Shown here piece after piece: positions 409 through 34,153 of a stretch of DNA of 36,694 nucleotides (the first letter of the stretch is position 1; every line of letters starts with the position of its first letter). The notes under the pieces are model-generated. The model worked only from the letters and a program-made list of their open reading frames with translations, was not told where the DNA came from and made no database searches. Source of the stretch: Verrucomicrobiales bacterium (lineage in GTDB: Bacteria > Verrucomicrobiota > Verrucomicrobiia > Verrucomicrobiales > DEV007); the NCBI GenBank assembly GCA_029213195.1, contig JARGNI010000049.1:1-36694 (forward strand), written 5' to 3'. A program made the position numbers and the translations under genes.

Positions 409-1944
409 CTAGAATTTGACATGCAAACCGACCGCACCGGACACGGTAGCATCAAGACCCTCGGTGGAACCAAAAACAGATGCATGGATGCTAGCTGTGT
501 CATTCAAGCGATGTACCAACTCGCCACCTGCCCGACCCCACGTTTCCGTTTGGTCTTGTTGATTTAGATTGAATGCCACGCCACCTGATGTACCCTCCAA
601 GCCTCCTGCAGAGTCTGAGCGAGTCACGCTTTCCAGAATCATCCGAAGCTCTGTTTTATCAGTAAGTTCACAGTCGATATCAACACCCGCCCGAACTTCG
701 TGATCCCGGGTGTGCTGGTTTGTAAAAGCGGCTGGAGCTGCACCACCTACTTCAGTGTAGGCGTCAGCTTTCGATTCAATGAAGGTGTAAGCGACTCGCG
801 GCGTGATCGAAAGCTTTTCGGTGCTGAAAGCATCCTTCCAATCGACTCTGAAACGAACGGCGTAGGAAACGGCGTCCGTCTCGCCAATAGAAGGAGGCCC
901 TCCAGCGGCATAACCCCGCACGGTGTCCACATCGTATTCTCCGTAGTAGAGGAGAGGAGAAATAATGATCTTTTCCGTGAAACGATAGTTAGCTTCTGCG
1001 ACAAAGAACTTACCATCGATCTCATTTCCTCCTCCGAATATAGCGTCTTGATCTGAAGATGTGTACCCGACTCCCAAACCTAGGCGAAGCCTATCGTCTT
1101 GGAGACCGCGGCTCACACCCACTTCCGAAACCGTTTGAGACGCATTGAACTCATCAAAGTGGGCAAGGTCGTTCGTCGCCCACGCGTGCCAGCCATCTTC
1201 ATCCAGCGCCGAGTCAATCAAAAGGCGATGGTGTGCACCATTGATGGTTGTTGTCGCCAGCTTTGGTGTGACAGCATTCACATCAAAAGACTCATTGAGT
1301 GAGGCCATATCAATGGGAGGTAGAATCAGCACCAGAATGTCATCGAAAGCAATGTCGCCCGTAAAGCTACTACCACTGGTATAATCAAACTGGAATTTGA
1401 ACTGGCTATTACCGTCGTAATCGGAAAGATCGATATCTACTTTCTCCCAGTCTCTCTGGTCGGTGAGACGTTGTCCTCCAAATGTTTTCACCGTGGTGTA
1501 GGTCGCTCCATTGTCGCCTGAGAGTTTGATATTCAGAGTTCCGATCGTATCCCCGTAGCGGTGCAGATACAATTGAAGGCTTGCTCCGTTCGCGGAACTC
1601 AAATCGATCGTCGGTGAAGAGGTTATGAATGATGTATTGGGGTAACCATCGGCTGAAGTCTCGGAGTAAAGGTAATTGCCGCTATCATCTTTCTTAGTGT
1701 TATCAAAGTCAGGCCCTGTGAGGCCGGAGGATGTCGTACCTTTCTCAATTTGCCAGGTTGCAATTCCACCGCCTCCATCGCTCTCGATCGTCCAGCCAGA
1801 GGTTCCCAAAAAACTTGACCAACCGCCCTCGGAATAACTCTCGAAATCCTCTGAGAAGAAGTTTTGTGCGGTGGAGAGTGATAATCCCAATGAAGTGCAA
1901 GCTCCTACCAACAGGAGCAATTTTATCGGTTGTCCCAAAGTCAT
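409..1944 (-). CDS. MAM-like domain / autotransporter beta-barrel outer-membrane protein
   Basis: Protein of 511 aa. The ATG at 1944 is chosen because AAGGA lies about 8 nt upstream and a typical signal peptide follows (LLLLVGACTSLGLSLSTAQ); an upstream in-frame extension lacks these. Residues about 25-215 form a jelly-roll of MAM-like type, with long beta-strands, an edge motif WEKVDIDLSDYDG and the terminal motif GDIAFDDILV. From about residue 240 there are alternating amphipathic strands typical of an autotransporter barrel, starting near DEDGWHAWATND and ending VGLHVKF, with the C-terminal Phe expected of a BAM substrate. The predicted product is an outer-membrane barrel displaying one small adhesive or glycan-binding domain. 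The passenger is far smaller than in classical autotransporters. No protease or cleavage motif was seen. The ligand is unknown. Confidence 0.75.
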   Translation of the reverse strand: MTLGQPIKLLLLVGACTSLGLSLSTAQNFFSEDFESYSEGGWSSFLGTSGWTIESDGGGGIATWQIEKGTTSSGLTGPDFDNTKKDDSGNYLYSETSADGYPNTSFITSSPTIDLSSANGASLQLYLHRYGDTIGTLNIKLSGDNGATYTTVKTFGGQRLTDQRDWEKVDIDLSDYDGNSQFKFQFDYTSGSSFTGDIAFDDILVLILPPIDMASLNESFDVNAVTPKLATTTINGAHHRLLIDSALDEDGWHAWATNDLAHFDEFNASQTVSEVGVSRGLQDDRLRLGLGVGYTSSDQDAIFGGGNEIDGKFFVAEANYRFTEKIIISPLLYYGEYDVDTVRGYAAGGPPSIGETDAVSYAVRFRVDWKDAFSTEKLSITPRVAYTFIESKADAYTEVGGAAPAAFTNQHTRDHEVRAGVDIDCELTDKTELRMILESVTRSDSAGGLEGTSGGVAFNLNQQDQTETWGRAGGELVHRLNDTASIHASVFGSTEGLDATVSGAVGLHVKF

Positions 1945-2139
1945 TTGCGGTTCCTTACGAACTAGTTGCATGGAAGGTGCCAAATGCCTGAGGATTGGCA
2001 ACAAAAAAAATATCGGTTCTTCTCGGATTTTCGTGGGCGCGGATTTGTGGCAAGGTGATGGATGCGGGAAGATTTGAAGGCCCATTACGGGCAGTTGTTG
2101 GGACTGGAGTCGCCTTGGGAGGTTGCATCAGAGGTTTTA

Positions 2140-14671: not shown

Positions 14672-17317
14672 TTAATCGAATTCGATCGCCTGGGGGGGCG
14701 CAAGGCGGACCCGCTGGGCGGGGAGGTCGGCATCCTCTTCATCGACCATGACAGGTCTCGCAACGGGAATGCCATTGCCATCGACCGGAACGGCTCGTGC
14801 AGGTTCGTCTTCGGATGCTCCTTCACCGGCGCCTTCTTCGCCTTCTCCCTCGCCGGATTCTTCGGCGACGACCATGGCGACACGAGCTCGAATAACCGGG
14901 GCAATGGAATTGTAGGGGTCATCCGAACCGATGATGGTCGGGGCAATCGGAAGAATCGGGTCTGCATTGGCCTCGACGACAAAGCCGGCGCGCAGCGGGC
15001 CGTCCTTGGGCTGCTTGGTAAGATCGCGAAGTCGGGATCCGGGTTTGCCATGGATATGGCAGATCATTTCCAGATCGGTACCAGGACGCAGGTATTCGTT
15101 GTAGGTGCATCGCACCTGGGAACTGATTCCGTTTCCTTTGTCGATGGTGCGGTAGCAATTGTTGGAGGCGAGCTCTCCTGACTCGATGCAAATCTCGACC
15201 TGCTCCGCATCGGGAGGGGGGAGAAAAGCACGAGGCTCGAACTTCTCGGCGGCCTCATTCATGACCTGGGTCCAGACAGGGAGAACCGTGTCGGAACTGA
15301 AGGCGCCGGGGTAGATCGTCTTGTTCTGATCGAAGCCAGCCCAGACCACGCAGGTGACTTTGGAGGTGTATCCGACAAACCAGTTGTCGGTGAAATTGTA
15401 TTCGGTCCCCGTTTTTCCTGCGACCGGGTAGTCCCCGAGGCCATAGCGTTCGTGGGCCTTGGCTCCCGTGCCACCGAGATCCTTGTCGAAGGTGTCTTCG
15501 AGGATGCTGCTGATCTGGTAGGCAGAGTAGGGATCGATGACCGGGTTCGACTGGAGCGTCACCTCGGGCGAGTAGATCAGGTTTCCGGTGGAGTCCTTGA
15601 TGTTCTCGATGATGTGAGTGCGCTCGGGACGCCTACCGCCATTCGGGAAAATGGTGTAGGCGAGGGCGAGGGATTCCGGCGAAGACGGGTTCCGTCCGAG
15701 GAAGGTGGCGTTGAATTTCTGGAGGTCTCCAGAGAAACTCATGCCCGCGGCCTCAGCCAGATCCACAACCGCCGTGGTGCCGACCTTCTGGCCGATTCGA
15801 ACCGTGGCGGCATTCTTCGACTTGGCGAGAGAACTCCGGGCCGTGAGACGGTTCTCGTAGACGTTGTCGAAGGTTTCGACGCCCCATTCCCCGAGAATCC
15901 CGGTGGTGCCTCCGATCATCACTTTGCGAGCATCCATGGGGGTGTCGTCGAGAAGGGTGCCGGGGAAGAAACCTTTCTCGAATGCCGTCGCATAGACAAA
16001 GGGCGTAAACGCAGTTCCCGTGGGGCGGCTTCCCTGGCTGATTCGATCGAACATGCTGTCGTTGAAGTCGCGCCCCCCTACCTGCGCAAGGACGGAGCCG
16101 GTCGCGTTGTCGATCACGAGGACGGCTCCCTGGAGATATTCGGGAGCTGCAAACTTCTGGTCGGGAAGTGCCGATTCTCGGAACGCTTTCTTCTTCTCCT
16201 TGTAGTCGGCGCGGGTGGGGTGCTCGAAATCTGGATGCTGCTCGATTTTGTCGAGTTGAGCTTTCAGGGTGTTTTCCGCCACGCCCTGGATGTCGCCATC
16301 GATAGTCGTGTGGATCGTGAATCCTCCTTTGGAAACCGTTTCATATCCGAGCAGATCGATGACCTCCTGCCGCACTTTCTCATACACGTAGGCGGATTTA
16401 CCGGTGATGTTTCCTTTGGGAATGGTGCGGATTTCGGATTTCTGCGAGCGCTCCATCGTATCCTTGTCGATGTAGCCTTCCTCGGCCATGCGGGCGAGCA
16501 CGTGGTTTCTCCAACGAAGCGAAGTCTCGGGGAAAGAGCGGGGAGAGCGGTGATAGGGGTTCGGGATGGCCGCAGCGAGAGTCGCGCCTTCCACGACCGT
16601 GAGACGGCTCGGGTCCTTTCCGAAATACCCTTCTGCAGCCGAGGCGATTCCGTAATAGCCGCTTCCGTAGTAGATTCGATTCACATACAGCTCGAGGATC
16701 TTCTGCTTACTCGCCAGCGCTTGCTCGATCCGCTGGGCGAGGAAGATCTCGGTGATTTTTCGGCTGATCGTCCGATCCTTCAGCTCAAAGGTCTGCCGGG
16801 AAAGCTGCTGGGTGATCGTCGAGGCACCCTGGTTCATCTGCTTCGAGCGAATCGCGTTGATCGCCGCTCGCATGATACCGACGTAGTCGGCGCCATTGTG
16901 TTCGTAGAAGCGACTGTCCTCCGCCGCGAGTAGGGCATTGATGAAATTGTCGGACACTTCCTCGAGCTGGACCGGGCGTCGATTCTGGACGAAAATCCGT
17001 CCCAGCTCCTTGCCGTTGCGATCGAGGATCCGGCTCGCCACCTCGACTTTTTCCAACTCGGACAGGTCGAAGGAATAGGCAAGATCGTAGCGAGGCTTGC
17101 AATAGAAGAAGGCTCCGGCGGCGCCAATGATGGCGACGATGAGAAAGAGGATGAAGGTGAAGCCAAAAAACTTCAGCCAGAAGACTCGCCGACGTCGACG
17201 CTTCAGCTTCGCCTGCGCTTCCTCACTGAGCGGAGGTATATCGACGACCGGCTTTGGTTCAGCCGGATCGATACTGCCGATCGCTTCAAAATCGCTATCG
17301 TCGAAATCGTTGGACAC
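14672..17317 (-). CDS. Class A penicillin-binding protein, PBP1A-like, with degenerate SxxK
   Basis: About 881 aa from GTG at 17317, chosen because it leaves 44 bp to the divergent methyltransferase start; a TTG at 17368 would overlap it. After a cytoplasmic tail ending KRRRRR there is one membrane segment (about 47-72). The GT51 glycosyltransferase domain follows, with catalytic Glu133 in AAEDSRFYEHNG, then STITQQLSRQ and EGYFGKDPSRLT. The transpeptidase domain (about 330-650) keeps SKN in LAKSKNAATVRI and KTG in VAGKTGTEYNFTDNW. At the SxxK position, however, it reads G-T435-A-F-T438-P: both nucleophilic Ser and Lys are replaced by Thr. The glycan-polymerising half should be active; acyl transfer is unlikely. 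The acidic C-terminal tail (about 190 residues) includes an ICIESGELASNNC segment. It likely polymerises lipid II at the inner membrane. Confidence 0.9.
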   Translation of the reverse strand: MSNDFDDSDFEAIGSIDPAEPKPVVDIPPLSEEAQAKLKRRRRRVFWLKFFGFTFILFLIVAIIGAAGAFFYCKPRYDLAYSFDLSELEKVEVASRILDRNGKELGRIFVQNRRPVQLEEVSDNFINALLAAEDSRFYEHNGADYVGIMRAAINAIRSKQMNQGASTITQQLSRQTFELKDRTISRKITEIFLAQRIEQALASKQKILELYVNRIYYGSGYYGIASAAEGYFGKDPSRLTVVEGATLAAAIPNPYHRSPRSFPETSLRWRNHVLARMAEEGYIDKDTMERSQKSEIRTIPKGNITGKSAYVYEKVRQEVIDLLGYETVSKGGFTIHTTIDGDIQGVAENTLKAQLDKIEQHPDFEHPTRADYKEKKKAFRESALPDQKFAAPEYLQGAVLVIDNATGSVLAQVGGRDFNDSMFDRISQGSRPTGTAFTPFVYATAFEKGFFPGTLLDDTPMDARKVMIGGTTGILGEWGVETFDNVYENRLTARSSLAKSKNAATVRIGQKVGTTAVVDLAEAAGMSFSGDLQKFNATFLGRNPSSPESLALAYTIFPNGGRRPERTHIIENIKDSTGNLIYSPEVTLQSNPVIDPYSAYQISSILEDTFDKDLGGTGAKAHERYGLGDYPVAGKTGTEYNFTDNWFVGYTSKVTCVVWAGFDQNKTIYPGAFSSDTVLPVWTQVMNEAAEKFEPRAFLPPPDAEQVEICIESGELASNNCYRTIDKGNGISSQVRCTYNEYLRPGTDLEMICHIHGKPGSRLRDLTKQPKDGPLRAGFVVEANADPILPIAPTIIGSDDPYNSIAPVIRARVAMVVAEESGEGEGEEGAGEGASEDEPARAVPVDGNGIPVARPVMVDEEDADLPAQRVRLAPPQAIEFD

Positions 17318-17361
17318 GGAATTTTTGTCAAAGGGGTTGGGGAGGGCTAGGATCTCCGGGC

Positions 17362-18501
17362 ATGGCAAACCCCCGAAAATCTTCGCATTCAGGCAAAGAT
17401 ACGCCTCTTTTGGATCTCGTCTTTCAAAGAATTGAGAAAAGTGAGGAGAAATCCATACCCTTTTCCGCCTTCATGGAACTGGCTCTGTATCATCCCAAGT
17501 GGGGGTACTACTCACGACCTGATTCGAGGGTGGTCGGTCGAGAGGGCGATTTCTTCACGAGTGTCTCGGTAGGAGAGACCTACGGATTTCTTCTCAGTGA
17601 GAAAATCCGGGCCGAAAGAAAGCAGGGTTTCTCTTCCCAGGGTCCGTTTCGCATCGTTGAACAGGGGGCTCATGATGGCCAGCTCGCGGTGGATATTGTC
17701 ACGGCGCTTTTGCGGCTCGATCCATCCGAATTGGGCGAGTGGGAATACTGTATCGTCGAGCCGAGAGCGACGGTGCGGGAGCAGCTGCGAAAGCGTTTCG
17801 AAAAGGAAGAAGTCCTGCGTGCCGAAGAAGCCGAGATCCGAGTCGTCTCTTCTCTCCCCGAAGCTTCCCATCCGCAGGGGATCTTTCTCTGCAACGAATT
17901 GCTCGATGCGTTTCCCTTCGATCGTGTCGCTCGCGAGGACGGACAATGGGGGGAAAAACAGGTCGGTATCGAGGACGGAGAGCTCGCCTGGGTGACTCGT
18001 CCGCTTCGCCCCGAGCTCGTTCCCTTCGTGGAGGCGCTCCCACGGGATTTACCAGATGACTATGCCACCGAAATCTGCCCTGCGGTCTCCTCCTGGATCG
18101 AGGAGGTCGCGCAGGTCTTCGAGTCGGGGACTTGGTGGCTCATCGACTACGGTTTCAAGGCCGATGACTACTATGCCTCTCATCGCTCGACGGGAACCTT
18201 CCGTTGCTACCGGGATCATCAGGCCTCGGAAGAACCTTTCGAGGCGGTCGGAGAAACGGATATCACCGCTCATGTCGATTTCTCCCTGGTACGTCGCGCG
18301 GCGGAAAAAGTCGGATTGAACTGGTCTGGCCTGACTGACCAGCATCATTTTCTTACCGAGGCGGCGCGTCCCTGGCTACTTTCGATGGAAGGGCAGGTGC
18401 CCGATGAAGTGGTTTCAAAACGACTGCGGCAGTTTCAAACCCTGACTCATCCCGGCATGATGGGGAAGCAGTTCAAGATTGCGAGCCTGCGTCGTCCCTG
18501 A
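17362..18501 (+). CDS. SAM-dependent methyltransferase, MidA/NDUFAF7 family
   Basis: Protein of 379 aa from ATG at 17362. Family hallmarks are SIPFSAFMELALYHPKWGYY, a SAM-binding strand-loop in RIVEQGAHDGQLAVDI (about residues 97-112), FLCNELLDAFPFDRV and WWLIDYGFKADDYY. Eukaryotic NDUFAF7/MidA dimethylates an Arg of the complex I subunit NDUFS2; bacterial targets are not established, and no complex I gene is nearby. The glycine-rich loop deviates (EQGAHDG rather than E-x-G-x-G-x-G), but that form is also seen in bacterial members. It is divergent from the PBP1A-like gene (44 bp) and its 3' end overlaps that of the convergent SDR gene by 29 bp. Confidence 0.8.
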   Translation: MANPRKSSHSGKDTPLLDLVFQRIEKSEEKSIPFSAFMELALYHPKWGYYSRPDSRVVGREGDFFTSVSVGETYGFLLSEKIRAERKQGFSSQGPFRIVEQGAHDGQLAVDIVTALLRLDPSELGEWEYCIVEPRATVREQLRKRFEKEEVLRAEEAEIRVVSSLPEASHPQGIFLCNELLDAFPFDRVAREDGQWGEKQVGIEDGELAWVTRPLRPELVPFVEALPRDLPDDYATEICPAVSSWIEEVAQVFESGTWWLIDYGFKADDYYASHRSTGTFRCYRDHQASEEPFEAVGETDITAHVDFSLVRRAAEKVGLNWSGLTDQHHFLTEAARPWLLSMEGQVPDEVVSKRLRQFQTLTHPGMMGKQFKIASLRRP

Positions 18502-23599: not shown

Positions 23600-25924
23600 T
23601 CAAAGCGCCTTGACGACGACACGGGTCGTGACTGCTTTCCCGCTGACTTCATCGATCGCGGTGACTTCGTGTTCGCCGGGTTTGAGGAGGAGCCAGTGAT
23701 GGTCGCCTTCGGATTCGATGGAGAGACTGGAGGATTCCCACAGGATTTTCTCTGCCCCGCTCCCGGCGATTTCCAGGGGGAACTTGCTTCCGTTTCCGGG
23801 TAGATCGGGATCGAGAAAGGCGACGGTCCCGGAAACCGGGCTGATGATTCGGAAATTCGGACGAGTTTCCATCGGGGTGAGGGGGCGGAGTTCGGCGATC
23901 GAAGCCAGGGAATGCTCGGCATTCTGCCACCAGTGATGATATTCCCTGGTGAGCAGGGTTTTCTTCTCGGGCGTATACTCCTCTTCGGAGGCTGGCAGAG
24001 GTTGTTGTCCCGAGAGAAACCACTCCCTCGTCAAACGGGAGACCGGGAGATCGAGGTGAGCGGGAGGGGTTTTTCCTGAAAGGCGATCGACCGCGATACG
24101 GCGAGCCTTCTCCGGCGGATCAAACCACCGAGGTTCTCGATCACGATACAGTTCCGTCATGACCCGGTGAAAGATCGGGGCGGCACCGATCGCACCCGAG
24201 ATCTGGTTCAGGGGGCGATTGTCGAAGCGCCCGACCCAGACCCCGACCGTGAAGTCCGGGGTGTAGCCCACCGTCCAATTGTCGCGAAAATCTGTTGAGG
24301 TCCCCGTTTTTGCCGCGACCCGGAAAGGGAGGCGGAGTGGCGAGTGAAGCCCGAAAGCCTCGACCCGAGCCTGGTTGTCGGAAAGGACATCGGCGATGAG
24401 CCAGGCCTGGTCCGGGTCGAACAGGGTGGAGTCCTCGACCTGACCCTGTTGAGTCGCGGTCGTGGTGGCGAGTCGGTAGGGGACCGCTCTCCCGAGTCGG
24501 GCAAGAGTGGAGTACGCCTGGGTCAACTCGAGGAGACGAACCGGGGCGTTCCCGAGGGTCAGTCCGAGACCGAACTCGTCGGAACCCTCCGAGAGACTGG
24601 TCATTCCGAACTGGCTCGTCAGGGTTTGGTGGAGAATGTCAGGCCCGCCGATCGAGTCGAGCAACTTGACGGCGGGAACATTGTAGGAGCAGGCCAGTGC
24701 CCGGCGGAGAGAGACGGGGCCATGAAAGCGGCGGTCGAAATTGACCGGTTGGTAGGTTCCGGTCGAGGTCACGTATTCGATCGGGGTATCGGCGATGACA
24801 TGAGACGGGTGGTGTCCGCGTTCAAAGGCGAGGAGATAGGTGAAGGGTTTCAGGGTCGATCCCGCCGAGCGGGGCTCCCAGGCGCCGTTGATTTGACCTC
24901 CCTGGGATCGGAAGAATGAGCGAGATCCGGTGAGGGCGAGGACGTTCCCGGTTTCATTCTCCAGGACAACGACGGCGGCCTGGAGATCATCGGTCTCCCG
25001 GGATTGATGAGCGAGACGAGAAAGCTCAGCGGATACGGCGCTCTCGACAAAGGTTTGCAGGGAAAGGTCGAGGGTGGTCGCGACTTCTGATCCGGAGTCG
25101 CGTGCCTCGGTGATAATGTCAGGATGAATCTGCTCGACCAGTTCTACGAAGTGAGGGGCATGGAAGACCTGGGAGGAACCGGGGAGCAGTCGGAGCGGCT
25201 CGATAAGAGCGGTAGTGAACTCGGCTTCCGTGATCCAGCCCTCGCTCTTCATTCTCTCGAGGACCCAGTGCTGTCGTTTGCGGGCTCCGTCGAGATTCCT
25301 CCAGGGATTCAGGCGAGAGGGCTTGTTGGGGAGCCCGGCGAGGAGGGCTGCTTCGGCAAGGGATAGGTCTCGCAGGGGTTTCCCGAAGTAGCCTTCGGCG
25401 GCGGCTCGGGCTCCCGTGAACTGGTTTCCGTAGGGAAGACGATTTAGGTAGGCCGTCAGGATGGTTTCCTTGTCCGCCCACATCTCGAGTTTTCGGGCGG
25501 TGAGAGCTTCCCAGATCTTGGTGCGAAGGGTTCGCCGGCGAGGCTCCGAGTATATCTTGATCGTTTGCTGGGTCACGGTGGAGGCACCAGATACGAAACG
25601 TCGATGAAGCAGGGCATCCCGGCTCGCTCGAGCCACCCCGAGCAGATCGATTCCGTTGTGCTGATAGAATCGAGAGTCTTCCGCCGCGAGGGTGGCCTGG
25701 ATCAGGAGGGGGGAGAATTCCTCGAAGCGGGCCGGTTCGGCGGCTCGCAGATCGTTGTCGAGGAATCGACGGATGGGAGTGCCTTCCTGATCGACAAAGA
25801 GCAGGCCCTGGGGGGCGCCGTCTGCTATGCTTTCAGGAAGGGAGAAGAAGAGAGGGGCGATATAGAAAACGGCGCCATATCCCACGAAGAGGATACCGAG
25901 AAAGATCAGGAGGCGCCTTTTCAT
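23600..25924 (-). CDS. pbpC: Penicillin-binding protein 1C (PbpC)
   Basis: Protein of 774 aa. One N-terminal membrane segment (about 5-27) is followed by a GT51 glycosyltransferase domain with catalytic Glu82 in AAEDSRFYQHNGIDLLG and STVTQQTIK. The transpeptidase domain has intact S356-T-L-K359, S413-Y-N415 and K539-T-G541. The C-terminal 120 or so residues form a beta-rich BiPBP_C-type domain (RIISPVSGTVAFLDPDLPG, HHWLLLKPGEHEVTAIDEVSG). It lies 30 bp downstream of the alpha-2-macroglobulin gene on the same strand, a pairing found in many Gram-negative bacteria (yfhM-pbpC). The proposed role is to repair peptidoglycan where the macroglobulin has trapped a protease. Unlike the PBP1A-like protein at 14.7-17.3 kb, all acyltransferase residues are kept. 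Confidence 0.93.
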   Translation of the reverse strand: MKRRLLIFLGILFVGYGAVFYIAPLFFSLPESIADGAPQGLLFVDQEGTPIRRFLDNDLRAAEPARFEEFSPLLIQATLAAEDSRFYQHNGIDLLGVARASRDALLHRRFVSGASTVTQQTIKIYSEPRRRTLRTKIWEALTARKLEMWADKETILTAYLNRLPYGNQFTGARAAAEGYFGKPLRDLSLAEAALLAGLPNKPSRLNPWRNLDGARKRQHWVLERMKSEGWITEAEFTTALIEPLRLLPGSSQVFHAPHFVELVEQIHPDIITEARDSGSEVATTLDLSLQTFVESAVSAELSRLAHQSRETDDLQAAVVVLENETGNVLALTGSRSFFRSQGGQINGAWEPRSAGSTLKPFTYLLAFERGHHPSHVIADTPIEYVTSTGTYQPVNFDRRFHGPVSLRRALACSYNVPAVKLLDSIGGPDILHQTLTSQFGMTSLSEGSDEFGLGLTLGNAPVRLLELTQAYSTLARLGRAVPYRLATTTATQQGQVEDSTLFDPDQAWLIADVLSDNQARVEAFGLHSPLRLPFRVAAKTGTSTDFRDNWTVGYTPDFTVGVWVGRFDNRPLNQISGAIGAAPIFHRVMTELYRDREPRWFDPPEKARRIAVDRLSGKTPPAHLDLPVSRLTREWFLSGQQPLPASEEEYTPEKKTLLTREYHHWWQNAEHSLASIAELRPLTPMETRPNFRIISPVSGTVAFLDPDLPGNGSKFPLEIAGSGAEKILWESSSLSIESEGDHHWLLLKPGEHEVTAIDEVSGKAVTTRVVVKAL

Positions 25925-25954
25925 CTCAGGGATTCACCAGGAACGAGGATTCTA

Positions 25955-28900
25955 TTATCGGAGCGCCACTTCGCCTGCCCCGAGAGCTTTGGCGGCAGCA
26001 CGGATTCGTCCCGTTCCGCTGAGGCCGAATCGTTGCGGCTCATACATCGCCTCGATTTTCGCAGGGGGGGATGTGACCTCACCCGGAGCGACGACGCGAG
26101 CCAGATACTGGAGGCTGTAGTCACCCGCCCGGTAGACCTGATCGGCAAAAAACAGGACCCGATCTTTCCGGATTTCACGGTAGTGCGTGTAGAGCGTTCG
26201 CCGTTTCTTCGTGGTATTGACCTTCTGGGTGGCCTGCGACTTGAAGGTGGGGTTCACTGCTTCGAAGATGGCGGGCAGGGCATCGTCGATCGCGAGGTAG
26301 TTCTCTCGGTCGTTGGGGATGTTGAGATCCAGCGTCACGAGGATGAGATCGCCGACTTCGAGGTCTTCGGCTGCCGAGATCGATCCATCCGAGTCGACTT
26401 TTTCGTAGGTGCGCTGGATTGCAAATCCGTTGTTCTCCGGTTCGATCGGCATCAGCTCGGGACGGGTTTCGACTCGGATCGTCGTGTAGACGGTGCCGCT
26501 CCCGCGAGGAGCAATCGAGAGAGCGTCGACGCCGATGTTCTCTTCAAAGGAAAAGGATTGAGTCTGGCTATCGGGAGTCGCGGTGAGCTCGATCGCTTGG
26601 CTTTGCCCGTCGAAGGTCACTTCCACCTGGTTTGCCGCCATCGAGCCAGCAGTGGCCTCACTGTAGTTCGCGAGGGCGATCAGCGGCCAGGCATTCGAGT
26701 AGGTGCTGCCCCAGCCATTCCTCGGTTGGCGCAGGGACATGAGTTCGTCGAGAAGGGTGTCGACTCGATCGCTTCCCGGATCGTGACGGAGTTGGGCGAG
26801 GAGCCGGGTCGCGGCAAGATAAGGCCGTTTGTACCAGGTCACCTCGGCGACGGGGACGGCTTCGGCCGGAGCGAGAAGGGCTTCGATTCGATCCGGGGAA
26901 GAAGCACCGCCTTCGATCATCGCGAGAGCGAGGAGGGAACGAGCTTCGAGAGAGAGCTGCTGGCGCTTCTGATAGAGCACTTCGTGGTAGCTGTTTTCGC
27001 TGACGCCGGCAAGAGCGAGCGCATAGGTGGAGAGACAGCGTTGCGAGAGTTCGTAGGTGTTTCCGAGATCGGCAGTATTCCGCAGATTCTTGGCGAGGTA
27101 TTTCCAGAGGGCGTCCGCCGAGTCTTCCGGCACATCGAGCCCCTGTTGCTGCGCCAGGGCAATGGCGACCCCGGCGTAGGCGCTTCCCCAGAGAACCGAT
27201 TCGCTGGCTCCGGGCCAGTAGCCCAAACCGCCGTCGGAGGTCTGCATGGAAAAGAGGCGATCGATCGCCTTGCCGGTCACCGAGGCGACATGCTCAGGTG
27301 ACTGATCCAGCGGTGGCATCACTTTTCGAAGTTGTTGCGTGCTGAGCCAGGGGATCAATGATGAGGTCGTCTGCTCGACGCATCCGTAGGGATACTTCAG
27401 GAGATAGTCGAGACCATCGGCGGCCTCGATGAGTCGTGAGTTGGAAAAAGAAACTTCGACCTTCCCGGTTCCGGTCCGAAGCCTCGGCTCCACTTTCTCG
27501 AGGACGCTCTCGAGGCTCTCTCCATTCTTCAGGGTGAAGCTATGAGACTCCCGAAGCAGGGGCAGGGGGTAGCCCACCTGGATAGTCGATTCGGTGGCAT
27601 CGCGAAGTCGTTCCTCGGTGAGCGAGTTGACACGCCAGGTCCACTTGGCCTCTCCGACCGAAGTCATGGCGATGGGAAACGAGAGAGTTTCGGTGGCTTG
27701 GGGCTCAAGAAGGGCGCGGACGGTTCTTTCGGTTTCACGAGAGTCCGCAGAGAGACTCGTGGAAAGGTTTTCTCCAATCCGGGAAACGAAAACGGCATGA
27801 TCATCGAGCGTGACCGTGACCTCGACCTCCTGCACCTGTTCGGTGTTGTTGTGGAGAACGGCCGAGACATCGACTTGATCAGTCAGGTTGGTGAAAACGG
27901 GGAGCGCAGGCTCGATGATGAGCGGCTTGTTGATGATCACGGGGGCTTCGCCATGTCCAAAGCGATTCCCTTCGGAGACAACTGCCATCAATCGGAAGGT
28001 CGTCAGATTGTCAGGGGCGGTAAATGTCGCGGTGACCTTGCCCTCCGCATCGGTTCTCAAGGTCGGTTCCCAGAATGCGAGTGCCTTGAAGTCCTTGCGG
28101 ATGCGATCTGGATCCAGTCCCTGGCCGTGTCCACCGCCTCCGATGACGTATCCCTTGTTCCCGAAATCCTGCTCCAGGGGATTCTCGGGTAAAAGCTCAC
28201 TGATGCTCTGGCCGGTGCGGACGGAGAGAGGAAACACTTCGTGAAACACTTCGTGAGGATCCGGAGTTTGATGGCCGGTCAGGCTGAGGACTCCCTCGTC
28301 GACGGCGAAGAACGTCACCGAGGCATTGGCGACGGCCTCTCCGCCGAGGGTCTGCACCAAGGTGGTCACTTCGACTTCTTCTCCCGGTTGGTAGTAGGCC
28401 TCGGGACCTGAGTCGATCGTCACCTCTAGATGGGAGGCGGGATCGTCGACCTCGATCTGGGTATAGCCGAGGCGATAGTCCGCGGAGGTGTGAATGTGAG
28501 GGCTTTCTGCAGATCCTCGAACGAGGAAGGCCGACGCAAAAATATTCGGGGCGTCGCCTTGCTGGATCGGAATTTCGACGACGGTTTCATATTCCGTGAT
28601 CTCGATAGGTCGGCTCGCACGGACTCCGCCTCTCTCCGTGGTGAGGATGCCTTTGCCGAATACCGGGGATCGGACGAGGACTTTCGCGACATCACCAACC
28701 TTGTAGCTGGACTTGTCGGGGATCATGTCGATGCGGATAACGTCGTACCAGGACCAACTGGGTTCTTCGGCTCCGATGACAGTGAATCGGGTGCGCGTCA
28801 GGACAGGGCGATTTTGCGCATCTCTCGCCGTGAGCGTGATGAGATAGTCGCCCGCCTCAGCAAAAGAAAGGGACTGAGGAAATGCACGAGTCAGGCCGGT

Positions 28901-31357
28901 TTCGGCATCCACCACGGTAACGAGCTCGATAGTTTCTTCCTGGACCGTTTCGAGCCGGTGATCGTTGCGGTAGGTCATGCGACCATTCGCGCCCATGACT
29001 TTCACGGTATTGTAGATTTTGCGTTCGACGAGGATCGTGGTCTCGACGGGAGTAGTGTAGGCGGTCCCATCTGCGGAAACTGCGGCAAGAGAGAAGGTCG
29101 GACTGTCGCCAGCTCGGTGAACTCCATCGGGGCTGTTGAGCCCGAGGTAAAAATCGGAGCTGTGAACGGTGAAGGACGCACTGCGGGAAATCGTTTGTTG
29201 ATTCGCATCCGTGACTTGCGTGGTCAGGCTGACACGACGAGGGCCGGGAGCGACTTTCTGTTCGGGGAGGTCGACCACGACTTCTCCATTACCTTTCGAC
29301 GAGAGAGGCTCGGTGCCATCTGCGCTGAAGCTCTCCCGGTCGACCGTGAGGTTGCCGAAGTCGAAGTCATCGAAACCGCGGGGGCGGGGGTATTCCCGGT
29401 AGGCGTAGATGTTCCACTGCATCTCGGCCTTGGACAGGGCCTTGCCCATGTAGTATTTCGCGGAAATTCCGATGGGGATGGGTTCTCCGAAATCGTAGGA
29501 TTGTTCGTGATCGATTCCGATCTCGAAGGTGTTGACCCGGTAGTCTTCCACCTGGAACGAGTGGTTGGTGATCAGTCTCCAATCGGGATGGTCTTCGAGG
29601 TCTCGGGGATTGAAGTCGAGTTCGACCGTGTGCCACCCCATCCCTGACGAGGGCAGGGTGAGGCTCTCGTCGAGTTCTCCTGTTTCGTCGATCTGAGCTT
29701 CTTCTTCGAAAATCTTTCGACGCCGGCTGTCATAGACTCGGAGTGTCGCTTCCCCGGCTCCTGGTCCGAGAAGTTTTTCTTCGTCGACGAATCGAGAGAT
29801 CGCTTTCAGTTTCACCTCATCCCCGGGACGATAGACATTGCGGTCGGAAAAGATCATCGTCCGCCGTTCCCCGACGGCGAGGTCGTTGTATCGCTGGTTG
29901 ATCGAGAAACTCCAGAGCCCGAGGGAGTTCATCCGCTGGTAGAAAGGCTTCACATGACGGTCCTGTCCGAACTGCACATCGAGGTAAAAAGAGGATGCGC
30001 CTTCCGGATCATCCGCGTAAAAATCGGCGTCGAAACTGACGAGTCCCTGGGCATCTGTGGTCGCTTCGGCGAGAACTCGGGCATCGGAGTTGGCGAGGGC
30101 GATTTTTGTCTGGGCGAGCGGGGTCCCATTCCGAATCGAGAAGGCATAGATCAGCGTTTCATCGGAATTCTGCTTCCAAGCGAGACCGATATCAGTCAGC
30201 TGGATGAGGGACTGGGCGCCGACTTCCCGCTTCTCCCGGGTGGCTGATTTTCCTTCGGAACAGAGATAGAAAGCTCCCGTGGTCGTGTTCTCACTCAGCT
30301 CATCCCAGTCGAGCGATACGGTCTCTGTCCTGTCGATCTTTGCTTCAGGCTCATGGAAGTGGTCGTAGATCGTTTTCCCGGGGATGGAGGAAAAGGCGAG
30401 GGCCTGCTCTTCTCCCCACCCTTCGTATTTCTCGCCGTATTCGTGAAGAGCCAGAATCAGTTGGTCACCTTCGAGTCGTTTCACCCGGGTGCGGAGCCCG
30501 GTGAGGTTCCCCATGCGGACATCGAAACGACGATGCCCCGTGGCATTCTGGGTGGTGGAAAATGCCGGGTAGGTCACGAATCCTTCGTTGGGCTCGAAGG
30601 ATACGGTCTTCGTGATCGTCTGGCTTAGCTGGGTCAGGTCGTGCGCGATGATCCCTTCGCGCAGGGTGACCTGGTAGGGGGTGCCATAGTCGAATGATCC
30701 GGTGAGGGAAATGCGATATCGATCGCTCTCGATCTTGAGGTCCGAGGGGGCAGGGGTAATCTGGACGTGTTCGGCTACTTTGGCCGAGTCGAATCCGGGG
30801 GCGAGTCCGGCCTTGTTGTGAGAAAGGTTGATCACGAGAGGATTGTCATAAGGAGCCCGCGCGCTGATTTCGTTGATCACGAAAGCCCGGAGAGACGCGA
30901 GGTAGTCCAGTCGGCTCTCGGTGATGGTATGAGTCCCAGTGGTGTTGGAAAGTCCCTGGCGAGCGTGAAGATACCAGGTGCCGCCCAGGGGGAGGGAGTT
31001 GGCCGGGCCCAGGAGGACGAAATGACCGGGATCCGCGTCGGTCTCGCTGGTTCCGAGGTAGCTCTTGATCTCTTCCTGGGAAGGCCGTTTTGCTGTGACG
31101 GCGACAACGCGGCGATGTGGTTTATCGTAGAATTGGAGGAACTGCGCCGCGGTCGCTGGAGCGACGGGTTCGCTGAAGCGGAGCAGGATCGCGGTGTTGG
31201 CCGTAAAGGGACGATCCGAGGAGAAACTCGAGGGATACTGGCGATAGGTCAGAGCGGAAGTGGCTTCTTCCTCCTGCGAGTGAACGGGAGCAGGGAGAAA
31301 GGGGATCGTGATGGCGAGTGCCAGCAGGCAGAAGACGGGGAGACGTAGGGGGATCAT
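25955..31357 (-). CDS. Bacterial alpha-2-macroglobulin (thioester-containing, YfhM-like)
   Basis: Protein of 1800 aa from ATG at 31357; a cleavable signal peptide precedes SQEEEATS, with no lipobox, so unlike E. coli YfhM it is likely soluble in the periplasm. The order is macroglobulin (MG) domains, then a bait-type region, then the thioester domain with C1326-V-E-Q in YPYGCVEQTTSS, then an alpha/alpha toroid (helix-rich, for example LGYWPGASESVLWG) and a C-terminal beta domain. The Cys-Gln thioester traps attacking proteases covalently. It pairs with pbpC downstream, as expected. A 12-bp tandem duplication at 28231-28254 encodes HEVFHEVF in the middle of the protein. The exact protease targets are unknown. 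Confidence 0.92.
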   Translation of the reverse strand: MIPLRLPVFCLLALAITIPFLPAPVHSQEEEATSALTYRQYPSSFSSDRPFTANTAILLRFSEPVAPATAAQFLQFYDKPHRRVVAVTAKRPSQEEIKSYLGTSETDADPGHFVLLGPANSLPLGGTWYLHARQGLSNTTGTHTITESRLDYLASLRAFVINEISARAPYDNPLVINLSHNKAGLAPGFDSAKVAEHVQITPAPSDLKIESDRYRISLTGSFDYGTPYQVTLREGIIAHDLTQLSQTITKTVSFEPNEGFVTYPAFSTTQNATGHRRFDVRMGNLTGLRTRVKRLEGDQLILALHEYGEKYEGWGEEQALAFSSIPGKTIYDHFHEPEAKIDRTETVSLDWDELSENTTTGAFYLCSEGKSATREKREVGAQSLIQLTDIGLAWKQNSDETLIYAFSIRNGTPLAQTKIALANSDARVLAEATTDAQGLVSFDADFYADDPEGASSFYLDVQFGQDRHVKPFYQRMNSLGLWSFSINQRYNDLAVGERRTMIFSDRNVYRPGDEVKLKAISRFVDEEKLLGPGAGEATLRVYDSRRRKIFEEEAQIDETGELDESLTLPSSGMGWHTVELDFNPRDLEDHPDWRLITNHSFQVEDYRVNTFEIGIDHEQSYDFGEPIPIGISAKYYMGKALSKAEMQWNIYAYREYPRPRGFDDFDFGNLTVDRESFSADGTEPLSSKGNGEVVVDLPEQKVAPGPRRVSLTTQVTDANQQTISRSASFTVHSSDFYLGLNSPDGVHRAGDSPTFSLAAVSADGTAYTTPVETTILVERKIYNTVKVMGANGRMTYRNDHRLETVQEETIELVTVVDAETGLTRAFPQSLSFAEAGDYLITLTARDAQNRPVLTRTRFTVIGAEEPSWSWYDVIRIDMIPDKSSYKVGDVAKVLVRSPVFGKGILTTERGGVRASRPIEITEYETVVEIPIQQGDAPNIFASAFLVRGSAESPHIHTSADYRLGYTQIEVDDPASHLEVTIDSGPEAYYQPGEEVEVTTLVQTLGGEAVANASVTFFAVDEGVLSLTGHQTPDPHEVFHEVFPLSVRTGQSISELLPENPLEQDFGNKGYVIGGGGHGQGLDPDRIRKDFKALAFWEPTLRTDAEGKVTATFTAPDNLTTFRLMAVVSEGNRFGHGEAPVIINKPLIIEPALPVFTNLTDQVDVSAVLHNNTEQVQEVEVTVTLDDHAVFVSRIGENLSTSLSADSRETERTVRALLEPQATETLSFPIAMTSVGEAKWTWRVNSLTEERLRDATESTIQVGYPLPLLRESHSFTLKNGESLESVLEKVEPRLRTGTGKVEVSFSNSRLIEAADGLDYLLKYPYGCVEQTTSSLIPWLSTQQLRKVMPPLDQSPEHVASVTGKAIDRLFSMQTSDGGLGYWPGASESVLWGSAYAGVAIALAQQQGLDVPEDSADALWKYLAKNLRNTADLGNTYELSQRCLSTYALALAGVSENSYHEVLYQKRQQLSLEARSLLALAMIEGGASSPDRIEALLAPAEAVPVAEVTWYKRPYLAATRLLAQLRHDPGSDRVDTLLDELMSLRQPRNGWGSTYSNAWPLIALANYSEATAGSMAANQVEVTFDGQSQAIELTATPDSQTQSFSFEENIGVDALSIAPRGSGTVYTTIRVETRPELMPIEPENNGFAIQRTYEKVDSDGSISAAEDLEVGDLILVTLDLNIPNDRENYLAIDDALPAIFEAVNPTFKSQATQKVNTTKKRRTLYTHYREIRKDRVLFFADQVYRAGDYSLQYLARVVAPGEVTSPPAKIEAMYEPQRFGLSGTGRIRAAAKALGAGEVALR

Positions 31358-31560
31358 AGACAAAACTGGGTTCCGAGTTTTTGACGAATCATACGGTCCA
31401 GATATGACTCATCTTTCAGACGAAAATGCGATTCCCGAACGAGACTTGCTTTGTCGTTGGCGGAAATCGCGCTTCCTCTTCTAGGACGATGGAGGAGCTG
31501 TCGTTCTTAGTGGCGGATCGGGGAAACGAAATCCAGGAACGCGTTTCCTCAATGCAGAGG

Positions 31561-33510
31561 TCAGGATGCGGTCTCGATTCTCACGAAGGGAGGAATCGGA
31601 CACCCCATGGCGTCTGCGATCGCTCGAATGAGCTCGGCTTCCCGACTGGCGACGTAGCCGTCGGCGAGGACGCTGCAGCTGGCCGCGTCGAGGAAGTGTT
31701 TTTTCACGATGGGAGAAGCAAAGGCGATTCGATCGAGCGCCTCATCGACCTGGGCGAGACCACACTGCTCGGGAGGGAGGAAGGGGATAGACGCCGAAGT
31801 GAAATTGGCGAGTCGTTCCGTTGCTTCTCGAAAAGCGGCTTCCTGGGCCGAGGTGTCATCGGGGTGACTCATCGCCGCCAGCGTTGTCAGTAGCACGCCG
31901 GTCTCCTTTCGGATCCGATGAAAGTCCTTGTAGCGAATTCGATCGGGGCGGCGCTGCTCGAAGAACGCGTCGAGGTGCCGATTGATGACTTTGAGCAGGG
32001 AGAACTCGAAGAGATCGACTTGACGATCACTTTCGATGAGATGCTGGGTGAGCGATTTGAACTGCGCGTATTCCTTCCTCGAGAGATGGCGGAGAGTGGG
32101 CAGGGCGAGGTCGATCAGACCAAACTTGATGCGAGAATGGGCGTCCTGCAATTCGTGAGAGAGGGCTGAAACGGTTTCGATGATGTCTTCGCCCGCTATA
32201 CTTCCGAGGTGCTGGAGCTCTTCCCTTCGCAGGGTCTCATCCTGCGCGAGGAGGAGGGAAAACACGATGGCCTGGGCGCCGAATTGGGACCGGCAGAGTT
32301 CGATCCAGGGTTCAGGGAGCGAGGCATAGAGATCGCGTCCCAACTGCACTTGCTCGGGGTGGACCATGCTCATGCTTTCCACTGCCTGGCTCTGGGTGAG
32401 TGGGAGATCCTCCTTGTCGGAGAGCATGGAAACGGGGGAGCCAGAGGAAAGACCCGACAACTGCGAGGTGTTTTGATCCGTTGCCGGAGAAATCGGAATG
32501 AGCCGTTCGTTCTTGAGTTCCCCATCCCAGTGGGGGAGGAGTCGGCGGATCCGCTTTTCGAGGGGTGGATGGGTCGCGAATGCCATGGATCGAAAGGCAT
32601 TGCCAAAAAAGAGATGGCTGGCATCCCGCGCCATGGGGTGCTCGACACGGGAACCTTCCGCGAGCCCGCCGATCTTCATCAATGCTCCGGCCAAACCGTC
32701 CGGATTTCTTGTAAACTGAACCGCGGAGGCGTCGGCAAGAAATTCCCGTTGCCTTGAGACGGAAGCCTTGATGAGATTTCCGAAAAAGTTCCCGACATAG
32801 CCGATCGCGAGAAGTCCGAGTCCGGCCACGAGCATCACCATCGCAGCTCCCGCTCCTTCTCGACGGCTCGAATGCATGCCTCCACGGACGCCGAAACGCA
32901 TGATCAATTCTCCCATCAGCGCGAGAAAGAGAATCCCGAAGAGGATGGACATGAGGCGAATGTTCAGCCGCATGTCTCCGTTGAGAATGTGCGAGAATTC
33001 GTGCGCCATGACCCCCTGGAGCTCATCTCTCGTCAGCAGGGTCATGCATCCCCGGGTCACCCCGATGACGGCATCGCTCGTTGTCTTGCCTGCGGCAAAG
33101 GCATTGATCGATTCTTCGGAATCGAGCAGGAAGACGGTGGGGACCGGGACACCTGAGGCGATCGCCATTTCCTCGACTACGTTCAGCAATCGGCGTTCGT
33201 GATAGTCCGTCGTGTTGAGATCCAGCTCTCTTCCACCCAATTCCCGGGCGACGACGGCGCCCCCGCCGGAGAGTTGGGCGGCCTTGAAAGCGCTCGCGAT
33301 GAAGACGACTCCTGCGGTTCCGATCGCGACGTAGAGAAAGGTTTCCGGTCTCCAGAGAGGTTGGGGGCCGGGTTGGTCATCGAGAAAGAAGAGAATCCCG
33401 GTCGCCAGCGCGTAGGTGGCGACGATGATCCCAAGGACGGCGAGTACGAAATAAAAGATGAGGACGCCGGTCTTCTTCCGGGCCTGCTCCTGGTGCTCGA
33501 AGAAATCCAT
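31561..33510 (-). CDS. M48-family membrane metalloprotease with long C-terminal extension
   Basis: Protein of 649 aa. Two membrane segments lie near residues 16-42 and 58-75; the zinc-binding motif is H170-E-F-S-H174 (GVMAHEFSHILNGD), followed by two further hydrophobic segments (about 185-205 and 222-242) and a distal Glu in RQREFLADASAVQ. This is the HtpX/M48 arrangement up to about residue 345. The remaining 300 or so residues (from about RLIPISPATDQ) are a soluble extension. Its helical end (REAELIRAIADAMGCPIPPF) resembles a TerB-like domain. HtpX itself is only about 290 aa. It is 46 bp downstream of lemA on the same strand, the common LemA/M48 partnership. It would cleave membrane or misfolded proteins at the inner membrane. 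Confidence 0.88.
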   Translation of the reverse strand: MDFFEHQEQARKKTGVLIFYFVLAVLGIIVATYALATGILFFLDDQPGPQPLWRPETFLYVAIGTAGVVFIASAFKAAQLSGGGAVVARELGGRELDLNTTDYHERRLLNVVEEMAIASGVPVPTVFLLDSEESINAFAAGKTTSDAVIGVTRGCMTLLTRDELQGVMAHEFSHILNGDMRLNIRLMSILFGILFLALMGELIMRFGVRGGMHSSRREGAGAAMVMLVAGLGLLAIGYVGNFFGNLIKASVSRQREFLADASAVQFTRNPDGLAGALMKIGGLAEGSRVEHPMARDASHLFFGNAFRSMAFATHPPLEKRIRRLLPHWDGELKNERLIPISPATDQNTSQLSGLSSGSPVSMLSDKEDLPLTQSQAVESMSMVHPEQVQLGRDLYASLPEPWIELCRSQFGAQAIVFSLLLAQDETLRREELQHLGSIAGEDIIETVSALSHELQDAHSRIKFGLIDLALPTLRHLSRKEYAQFKSLTQHLIESDRQVDLFEFSLLKVINRHLDAFFEQRRPDRIRYKDFHRIRKETGVLLTTLAAMSHPDDTSAQEAAFREATERLANFTSASIPFLPPEQCGLAQVDEALDRIAFASPIVKKHFLDAASCSVLADGYVASREAELIRAIADAMGCPIPPFVRIETAS

Positions 33511-33556
33511 TCTGTCTCGTTCGTCCCTGCCTCGAATGGCTCGTGCCGGGGGCGGT

Positions 33557-34153
33557 TCAGAACTTCACTTCGACCGCATCCCGCTCGGAGTCATCGGATA
33601 CTTCGAAGAGGGTAGCGGGGACAAATTGGAACATCCCCGCGATGAAGTTGGACGGAAAGGTCTCCAGCTTGTTGTTGAAGTGCATCACGGAGTCATTGTA
33701 GGCCTGGCGGGCAAAAGCGACCTTGGACTCGGTGGAAGTGAGCTCCTCCTGCAACTGTAGCATGTTCTGGTTGCTGCGGAGATCAGGGTAGGCCTCGGAA
33801 AGGGCAAAAAACTTCCCCAGAACACCACCAAGCCCGGCTTCTGCAGCGGCAAGTTGGGAGAGATCGGCTCCTCCCTGTTCGGGCGAGGCTGAGGACCTTG
33901 CCGATTCTGCAGCATTTCGAGCCTGGATTACGGCTTCCAGCGTCTCTTTCTCGTGAGCCATATAAGACTTGGCCGTCTCAACCAGGTTGGGAATCAGGTC
34001 GTGACGGCGCTTCAGCTGTACGTCGATCTGGGCGAAGGCGTTCCGGTATTTGTTTCGCTGGCGAACGAGGCCGTTGTAGAGACCGATCACGAGAAAGATC
34101 GGAATCGCGATGAGAACAACGACGACAAGGATGATGAGGATAAGGTAGCTCAT
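33557..34153 (-). CDS. LemA family protein
   Basis: Protein of 198 aa. An N-terminal membrane segment (about residues 3-26) is followed by a helical coiled-coil domain with the LemA pattern YNGLVRQRNKYRNAFAQIDV, then KRRHDLIPNLVETAKSYM, then SEAYPDLRSNQNMLQLQEELTS and AFARQAYNDSVMHFNN. LemA proteins expose the C-terminal domain outside the inner membrane; function is unknown. The M48 protease gene follows with a 46-bp gap, an arrangement seen widely. It diverges from the ExbB/TolQ-like gene across an AT-rich 222-bp region. Confidence 0.92.
   Translation of the reverse strand: MSYLILIILVVVVLIAIPIFLVIGLYNGLVRQRNKYRNAFAQIDVQLKRRHDLIPNLVETAKSYMAHEKETLEAVIQARNAAESARSSASPEQGGADLSQLAAAEAGLGGVLGKFFALSEAYPDLRSNQNMLQLQEELTSTESKVAFARQAYNDSVMHFNNKLETFPSNFIAGMFQFVPATLFEVSDDSERDAVEVKF

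Follow-up and report, generated by a model that had tools for sequence, protein, structure and literature searches.

Class A penicillin-binding proteins (PBPs), in which a GT51 glycosyltransferase (GT) domain is joined to a transpeptidase (TP) domain, are regarded as bifunctional. Here we report a class A PBP (aPBP) of a Verrucomicrobiales bacterium, encoded in a stretch of 36,694 nucleotides (assembly GCA_029213195.1, contig JARGNI010000049.1; hereafter the window), whose TP domain carries threonine at the position of the catalytic serine. The reading that we prefer, with a probability of about 0.7, is that this Thr-type protein is an ancient aPBP with a lipid II-polymerising GT51 domain and a conserved non-catalytic pseudo-transpeptidase, and that cross-linking is provided in trans by other enzymes. 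The coordinates of all features are collected in Table 1.

The gene is an uninterrupted frame of 881 codons, and its first residue is the starting point of many orthologue alignments. Pfam recognised both domains, with 188.5 bits for GT51 (PF00912; E 9.1e-56) and 71.6 bits for the transpeptidase (PF00905; E 8.2e-20; cut-off 22.1), and the scores for the PBP1A subfamily (TIGR02074; 482.6 bits) and for monofunctional glycosyltransferases (TIGR02070; 127.6 bits; TP domain present) remained below the respective cut-offs of 508.75 and 182.65. Of the motifs of an active transpeptidase, the window protein has S-x-N and K-T-G and lacks S-x-x-K; the nucleophile region reads R-P-T-G-T435-A-F-T438-P-F-V-Y, with the codons ACT (T435; 16013-16015) and ACG (T438; 16004-16006). 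The motif register is correct because the alignment with PBP1a of A. baumannii pairs GTAFTPF with GSTIKPF. An initial annotation, made from the sequence alone, had reported TAFT instead of SxxK and the retention of SKN and KTG; translation, the codons at 16004-16015 and the PBP1a alignment bear out the former, and residues 500-502 and 635-637 the latter. It had also considered that another Ser-x-x-Lys might be the nucleophile. The candidate S496-L-A-K499 was rejected as a chance SxxK because neither column is conserved: among 82 representative relatives, column 496 is Ala in 72, and column 499 underwent 43 changes (92nd percentile of TP columns).

The motif was read in 156 orthologues (one per genome; 15 family codes) from one class of Verrucomicrobiota, comprising 70 of the 74 genomes of the window's own family, 61 genomes of the same order outside the family, and 25 of 35 matched genomes of other orders, which were picked non-randomly by score, spread and availability. 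Second copies (L110, L111) were left out, and repeat loci of genomes already counted were not added (one distant match among them, L071, reads GSAFK); five extra pseudo-TP paralogues (L237, L238, L240, L241, L248) were excluded from both the Thr-type and the canonical sets. The underlying protein searches, whose matches include some paralogues, were positive in 73/74 genomes of the own family (E up to 1e-60), 277/288 of the order (1e-130), 77/236 of the class (1e-135) and 43/288 of the phylum (1e-125), all 43 within the window's class. An orthologue-level match was absent from four of the 74 own-family genomes (G046, G064, G070, G071), which are 59 to 81% complete.

Residue 435 is Thr in 150 orthologues, Ser in five and missing in one, a degree of conservation that excludes a chance origin of Thr435. 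Residue 438 is far more variable (46 Lys, 44 Thr, 36 Leu, 8 Phe, 7 Met, 6 Ile, 3 Val, 2 His, and one each of Gln, Gly, Ala and missing), so that 109 of 155 rows are non-Lys, and 108 of these 109 have Thr435. T-x-x-T occurs in 44 genomes, including that of the window, and Thr-Lys in 42. Ser-Lys is confined to four genomes of one genus (g6) of the window's family and Ser-Leu to a single genome of family f3; the alignment of orthologues at SxxK, proposed as a check in the initial annotation, thus brought no general refutation. Relatives from the window's own genus combine Thr435 with Lys, Met, Leu or Thr at +3, the small genomes of genus g19 (f2) have forms such as GTAIL and GTSIL, and GTAFL is found in G110 (f4), a genome in one contig of 8.2 Mb. 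The orthologue match of L099 (G014) is in two pieces, with query residues 415-684 absent, perhaps by an assembly gap or a TP deletion.

Across the 82 Thr-clade representatives, parsimony counted two changes at column 435, none at P439 and E133, one each at K635 and G637, and two at T638, as against 37 at 438, 13 at S500 and 11 at N502. None of these columns changed in 18 canonical representatives; because the canonical set is the smaller one, change counts cannot be compared in absolute terms between the two sets, whereas the comparison of GT with TP is valid. S500 is retained in 58, N502 in 53 and K635 in 81 of the 82 representatives, and E133 and D134 are unchanged (a residue is present in 80). 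The Thr at position 435 is encoded by each of the four possible codons, so selection acts on the residue and not on the DNA. Of the 42 TP columns without any change in the canonical set, the four with the most changes in the Thr clade are three columns of the W-x-P-x-N loop region (484, 482 and 480) and that of the catalytic Lys (438). Canonical-invariant columns were kept at ≥90% in 26/32 cases in the GT domain vs 19/42 in the TP domain (Fisher p 0.002). The whole-domain change ratio between the Thr clade and the canonical set is 4.10-fold for TP, 3.84 for GT and 4.04 for the linker, and since the TP and GT ratios are similar, the TP domain is not decaying overall. The pattern looks like that of a site remodelled inside a maintained fold, not of decay. 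With its conserved fold and with catalytic residues replaced under long-term constraint, the TP domain fits the description of a pseudoenzyme.

The Thr clade also has an inserted loop between motifs 1 and 2, which has no counterpart in the 18 canonical representatives; canonical proteins carry [WY]xPxN in its place. Residues G473, E477 and E481 are unchanged in all 155 rows with a residue there, and the pattern GxLGEW[GA]xE fits 142 of the 156 orthologue rows. Searched as a DNA pattern in 387 genomes of the phylum, the loop matched in 48, every one a member of the window's class, as against one match for the reversed control; five of the order's genomes in this list do not match the strict loop pattern. 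In other PBPs, this region has a role at the entrance of the pocket. The GSAFK proteins of genus g6 have the loop as GEWA, and because these Ser-Lys proteins share it, the loop does not require Thr435.

In a tree of 119 representatives, inferred after removal of the motif columns, 89 rows, seven of them second copies, form the Thr clade, which lies apart from the canonical PBP1A-like paralogues (Shimodaira–Hasegawa-like approximate likelihood ratio test [SH-aLRT] 99), and a mixture-model tree of 56 rows split the Thr-type and canonical sets at 100; all trees were quick searches. A divergent PF02636 methyltransferase gene adjoins the PBP gene in 106 of the 156 loci (f1 64/70, f4 21/23, f2 11/26, f14 4/4, f6 2/2, f3 2/9, f5 1/1, f29 1/1), and its orientation was divergent in 131/131 matches, repeat loci included. 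This neighbour was found in none of 20 loci of f23, f31, f33, f42, f45, f51 and f53, nor in the 14 loci of g19. Some loci have short flanks.

The AlphaFold2 model of the window protein (75 sequences) had a mean predicted local distance difference test (pLDDT) score of 86.1, with a predicted helix (434-447) that starts at the Thr motif, as the catalytic helix should. Its top match in the PDB was PBP1a of A. baumannii (3ue1_B; Z 49.0; root-mean-square deviation [rmsd] 6.8; 492 aligned), and the class A PBP 4oon was also among the best matches (Z 46.8; rmsd 2.5 over 387); the fold match carries no information on activity.

The genome of the window (5.9 Mb, 115 contigs) encodes four GT51 proteins: the Thr-type protein, PbpC (23600-25924; GSTLK) and, outside the window, two PBP1A-like proteins whose motifs read GSTFK and GSIFK. 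Of its seven PF00905 matches, three are without GT51 and would represent class B PBPs; there are also 16 matches to YkuD, the L,D-transpeptidase (LDT) family. The capacity for cross-linking is therefore independent of the Thr-type protein. The initial annotation had suggested that cross-linking roles might be split with PbpC; the GSTLK motif of PbpC is indeed intact, but the split is not specific to PbpC, given the two PBP1A-like proteins, the three transpeptidase matches without GT51 and the YkuD matches. At least one canonical PBP1A-like paralogue with GSxxK stands beside the Thr-type protein in all 17 genomes inventoried for GT51, which were chosen among genomes known to have the Thr-type protein; in G380 (2.1 Mb), the two make up the entire GT51 set. 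In each of eight genomes, there were 6 to 18 YkuD matches (one of those in G380 contains stops), together with further PF00905 transpeptidases, and the YkuD numbers suggest a strong capacity for L,D-cross-linking.

Several genomes encode additional aPBP-like proteins. All nine f2 genomes inventoried have a further GT51 protein (L152, L153, L154, L162, L163, L164, L166, L179, L267) with an open frame of 578 to 626 aa and a shortened, more degenerate TP-like region, which reads GDLFTP, GELFTP, GSAFEP, GTLFEP or GFLFVP at the nucleophile site and is without an aligned SxN or KTG; modelling of L153 (mean pLDDT 76.6) still gave a match to class A PBPs (Z 27.6; rmsd 5.2; 438 aligned). The g19 genomes G085 and G116 have three aPBPs each, only one of which has the full catalytic set. 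Extra pseudo-TP paralogues occur in some own-family genomes (L237, L238, L240, L241, L248, L110, L111, L269), with GTAFA, GTTIA, GTAIT, GFAFA, GAAFF, GTAFT, GSAFL and GSAFF at the nucleophile site; in the tree, the first seven join the Thr clade, whose loop they also have, and L269 is outside the tree sample.

From the sequence, its conservation, the synteny in part of the families and the predicted fold, we infer the following mechanism. The GT51 domain would polymerise lipid II to uncross-linked strands. Because the nucleophile Ser and the general-base Lys are gone (T435, T438), the TP domain of the window protein should form no cross-links between stem peptides and no acyl adduct with beta-lactams. 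Cross-linking of the strands in trans would fall to class B PBPs, to LDTs or, less likely, to a canonical PBP1A paralogue, the latter being disfavoured because a mixture of TP-dead and GT-dead PBP1B of E. coli yielded no significant cross-linking (passages of PMC4632607). The retained pocket (T435, KTG and the GEWGxE loop) would most likely tune the GT, either as a scaffold or by binding stem peptides or a partner non-covalently; of the two, binding is favoured by the kept KTG and by the new loop. This agrees with the initial annotation in that a GT with a pseudo-transpeptidase is the best reading, which the class-wide Thr now supports more strongly, but the nucleophile is not simply lost, since Thr is held while Lys drifts.

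There is precedent in the experimental literature. PBP1A and PBP1B of E. coli still polymerise lipid II, to uncross-linked strands, with a blocked TP or a mutated TP Ser, and the strands made by a TP-dead aPBP are cross-linked by pneumococcal class B PBPs (passages of PMC4632607). PBP1B(S510A) fully prevents lysis of LptC-depleted E. coli and feeds LdtD together with PBP6a (passages of PMC6428754). A natural counterpart, in which the Thr-type aPBP provides the GT and class B PBPs or LDTs the cross-links, is plausible by analogy, because the eight genomes tested contain both YkuD matches and further PF00905 transpeptidases.

Several points weigh against a TP domain without catalytic function. 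The near-invariance of K635 would be unnecessary in a fully dead site, and the strict retention of Thr435 is unexplained by a mere scaffold. Among the 46 genomes with Lys438, 40 also hold S500, N502 and K[TS]G (four of the 40 with Ser435), and one genus (g6; four genomes) has Ser-Lys at the same locus. The g6 loci (L102, L105, L107, L108) read GSAFK, possess the complete Ser-Lys-SxN-KTG set, and retain the divergent PF02636 neighbour and the loop of the clade. The mixture-model tree nests g6 inside the order (SH-aLRT 97). A tree constrained to keep the Thr rows together without g6 is not rejected: under LG+G4 it scored 2.40 log units above the free tree, which had missed it (approximately unbiased [AU] test, p 0.52), and under the mixture model 9.79 lower (p 0.14). 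The Ser codons of g6, TCC and TCA, both lie a single step away from a Thr codon. Ser-Lys in g6 may be a reversal, as favoured by the nesting and the Ser codons, or it may be the retained ancestral state, with which both AU results are compatible.

In another reading, the site has been repurposed, with Thr435, Lys635 and Glu477/Glu481 forming a new binding or catalytic site (e.g. for another feature of the stem peptide or a small ligand) that works without the old Lys. We regard this as a tentative alternative: T435, K635, G637, T638 and the loop positions 476, 477, 479 and 481 belong to the 23 TP columns, out of 240, that changed no more than twice, the positions of the old general base, SxN and WxPxN are relaxed, and the loop insertion with its invariant Gly and Glu residues is absent from the canonical representatives, but the GSAFK genus shares the loop (as GEWAxE), which is thus not exclusive to the Thr state, and the conserved Gly and Glu may be structural. 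Rather unlikely, in our estimate, is the wider proposal of a pocket rebuilt throughout the class, in which Thr was fixed and the general base freed, the Glu loop and KTG form a site, either ligand-sensing or newly catalytic, through which the state of the stem peptide or a partner is coupled to polymerisation, and Ser-Lys was regained in one genus. It also appears doubtful that the Thr-Lys members use Thr435 as a functional but slower nucleophile, with activity lost later only where Lys was lost, as in the window protein. Thr-Lys is present in 42 of 156 genomes, Thr is held by selection, and S500 and N502 are both kept in 9/11 Lys-bearing vs 21/71 Lys-less representatives; however, Thr is equally fixed without Lys, and phylogenetic pairing was non-significant (of 9 pairs, approximately 2.5 concordant vs 0.3 discordant; sign test, median p 0.5, range 0.125-1). 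The notion that Thr-Lys members keep SxN because they are active, which the raw counts suggest, was rejected as the phylogenetic pairs do not show it. Ser-to-Thr mutants of PBPs are generally poor enzymes. The Thr-Lys relatives might be slow enzymes and might bind beta-lactams. A sequencing or assembly error or a recent pseudogenisation in the window genome alone, the former raised in the initial annotation, is highly improbable in view of the open frame and the class-wide Thr435, which is also present in the relatives of the same genus; nothing was found in its favour, and for residue 435 the relatives rule out an error.

Among known systems, the PBP1A family (E. coli MrcA, A. baumannii PBP1a) is the best match in both sequence and fold, with a common GT51 + TP architecture and KTG; the Thr-type protein differs in having Thr for the catalytic Ser, in the loss of Lys, in the GEWGxE loop that replaces WxPxN and, compared with MrcA, in the Cys residues of its C-terminal tail. 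The canonical PBP1A-like paralogues (L001, L004, L160, L261, L262 and others) share the domains, approximately 35 to 39% identity and the C-terminal Cys, but have GSxxK in all 17 genomes and, in the nine compared, also SRN[TA]M, KTGTT and [WY]xPxN. MtgA and SgtB would work alike, polymerising without cross-linking, but have no TP domain, whereas the Thr-type protein keeps the whole fold. Engineered parallels also exist: E. coli PBP1B(S510A) and pneumococcal PBP2A with an inactive TP combine a GT with a dead TP and receive their cross-links from LdtD or class B PBPs (passages of PMC6428754 and PMC4632607). These are laboratory mutants, whereas the state of the Thr-type protein is natural, old and class-wide.

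No description of a natural pseudo-transpeptidase aPBP in this group was found in the titles and abstract beginnings returned by searches of open-licence literature, and the parts of PMC5147048 considered here do not treat one. The peptidoglycan of Verrucomicrobium spinosum is reported to be canonical, with tri-tetra and tetra-tetra dimers, and a transposon library and targeted mutagenesis exist for this species (passages of PMC12283558); the words penicillin, transpeptidase and glycosyltransferase do not occur in the main text of that paper. Akkermansia retains an aPBP (passages of PMC8406291). If the pseudo-transpeptidase reading is true, a natural and ancient TP fold without the catalytic pair would be direct evidence of a non-catalytic role of the domain (scaffold, sensor or GT regulator), which is otherwise probed by point mutants. 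It would also imply a beta-lactam-insensitive polymerase in bacteria including at least one with canonical peptidoglycan, V. spinosum (passages of PMC12283558). One locus in Thr-Thr, Thr-Lys, Thr-hydrophobic and Ser-Lys states would make a clean comparative system.

Table 1. Features of the Thr-type PBP and its divergent neighbour (positions in the window; residues of the 881-aa protein).
Feature	Position	Strand	Remarks
Class A PBP with putative pseudo-transpeptidase domain	14672..17317	-	881 aa; GTG start; upstream TTG at 17368 a possible alternative
N-terminal helix, residues 32-82	17072..17224	-	Structure prediction; presumably holds the membrane anchor
GT51 glycosyltransferase domain, residues 102-277	16487..17014	-	Pfam
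GT51 Glu133 (E-D motif)	16919..16921	-	Which we take to be the catalytic Glu, from family knowledge; 0 changes in 82 representatives
Transpeptidase fold, residues 397-656	15350..16129	-	Pfam and prediction; pLDDT mostly >90
T435-A-F-T438 where S-x-x-K is expected	16004..16015	-	Start of predicted helix 434-447
Loop G473-I-L-G-E477-W-G-V-E481 where [WY]-x-P-x-N is expected	15875..15901	-	Clade signature
S500-K-N502, second motif	15812..15820	-	Intact in window protein; often G or I in relatives
K635-T-G637, third motif	15407..15415	-	K635: 1 change in 82 representatives
PF02636 S-adenosylmethionine-dependent methyltransferase open reading frame, divergent neighbour	17254..18501	+	True start probably further in

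Elsewhere in the window, the gene for PbpC (GSTLK) adjoins that of a bacterial alpha-2-macroglobulin of 1802 aa (23600-31363, reverse strand), a pairing known in other bacteria. An open reading frame for an M48 peptidase adjoins one of the LemA family (31561-34153, reverse strand), and a single open reading frame combines a MAM domain with an autotransporter beta-domain (409-2085, reverse strand).

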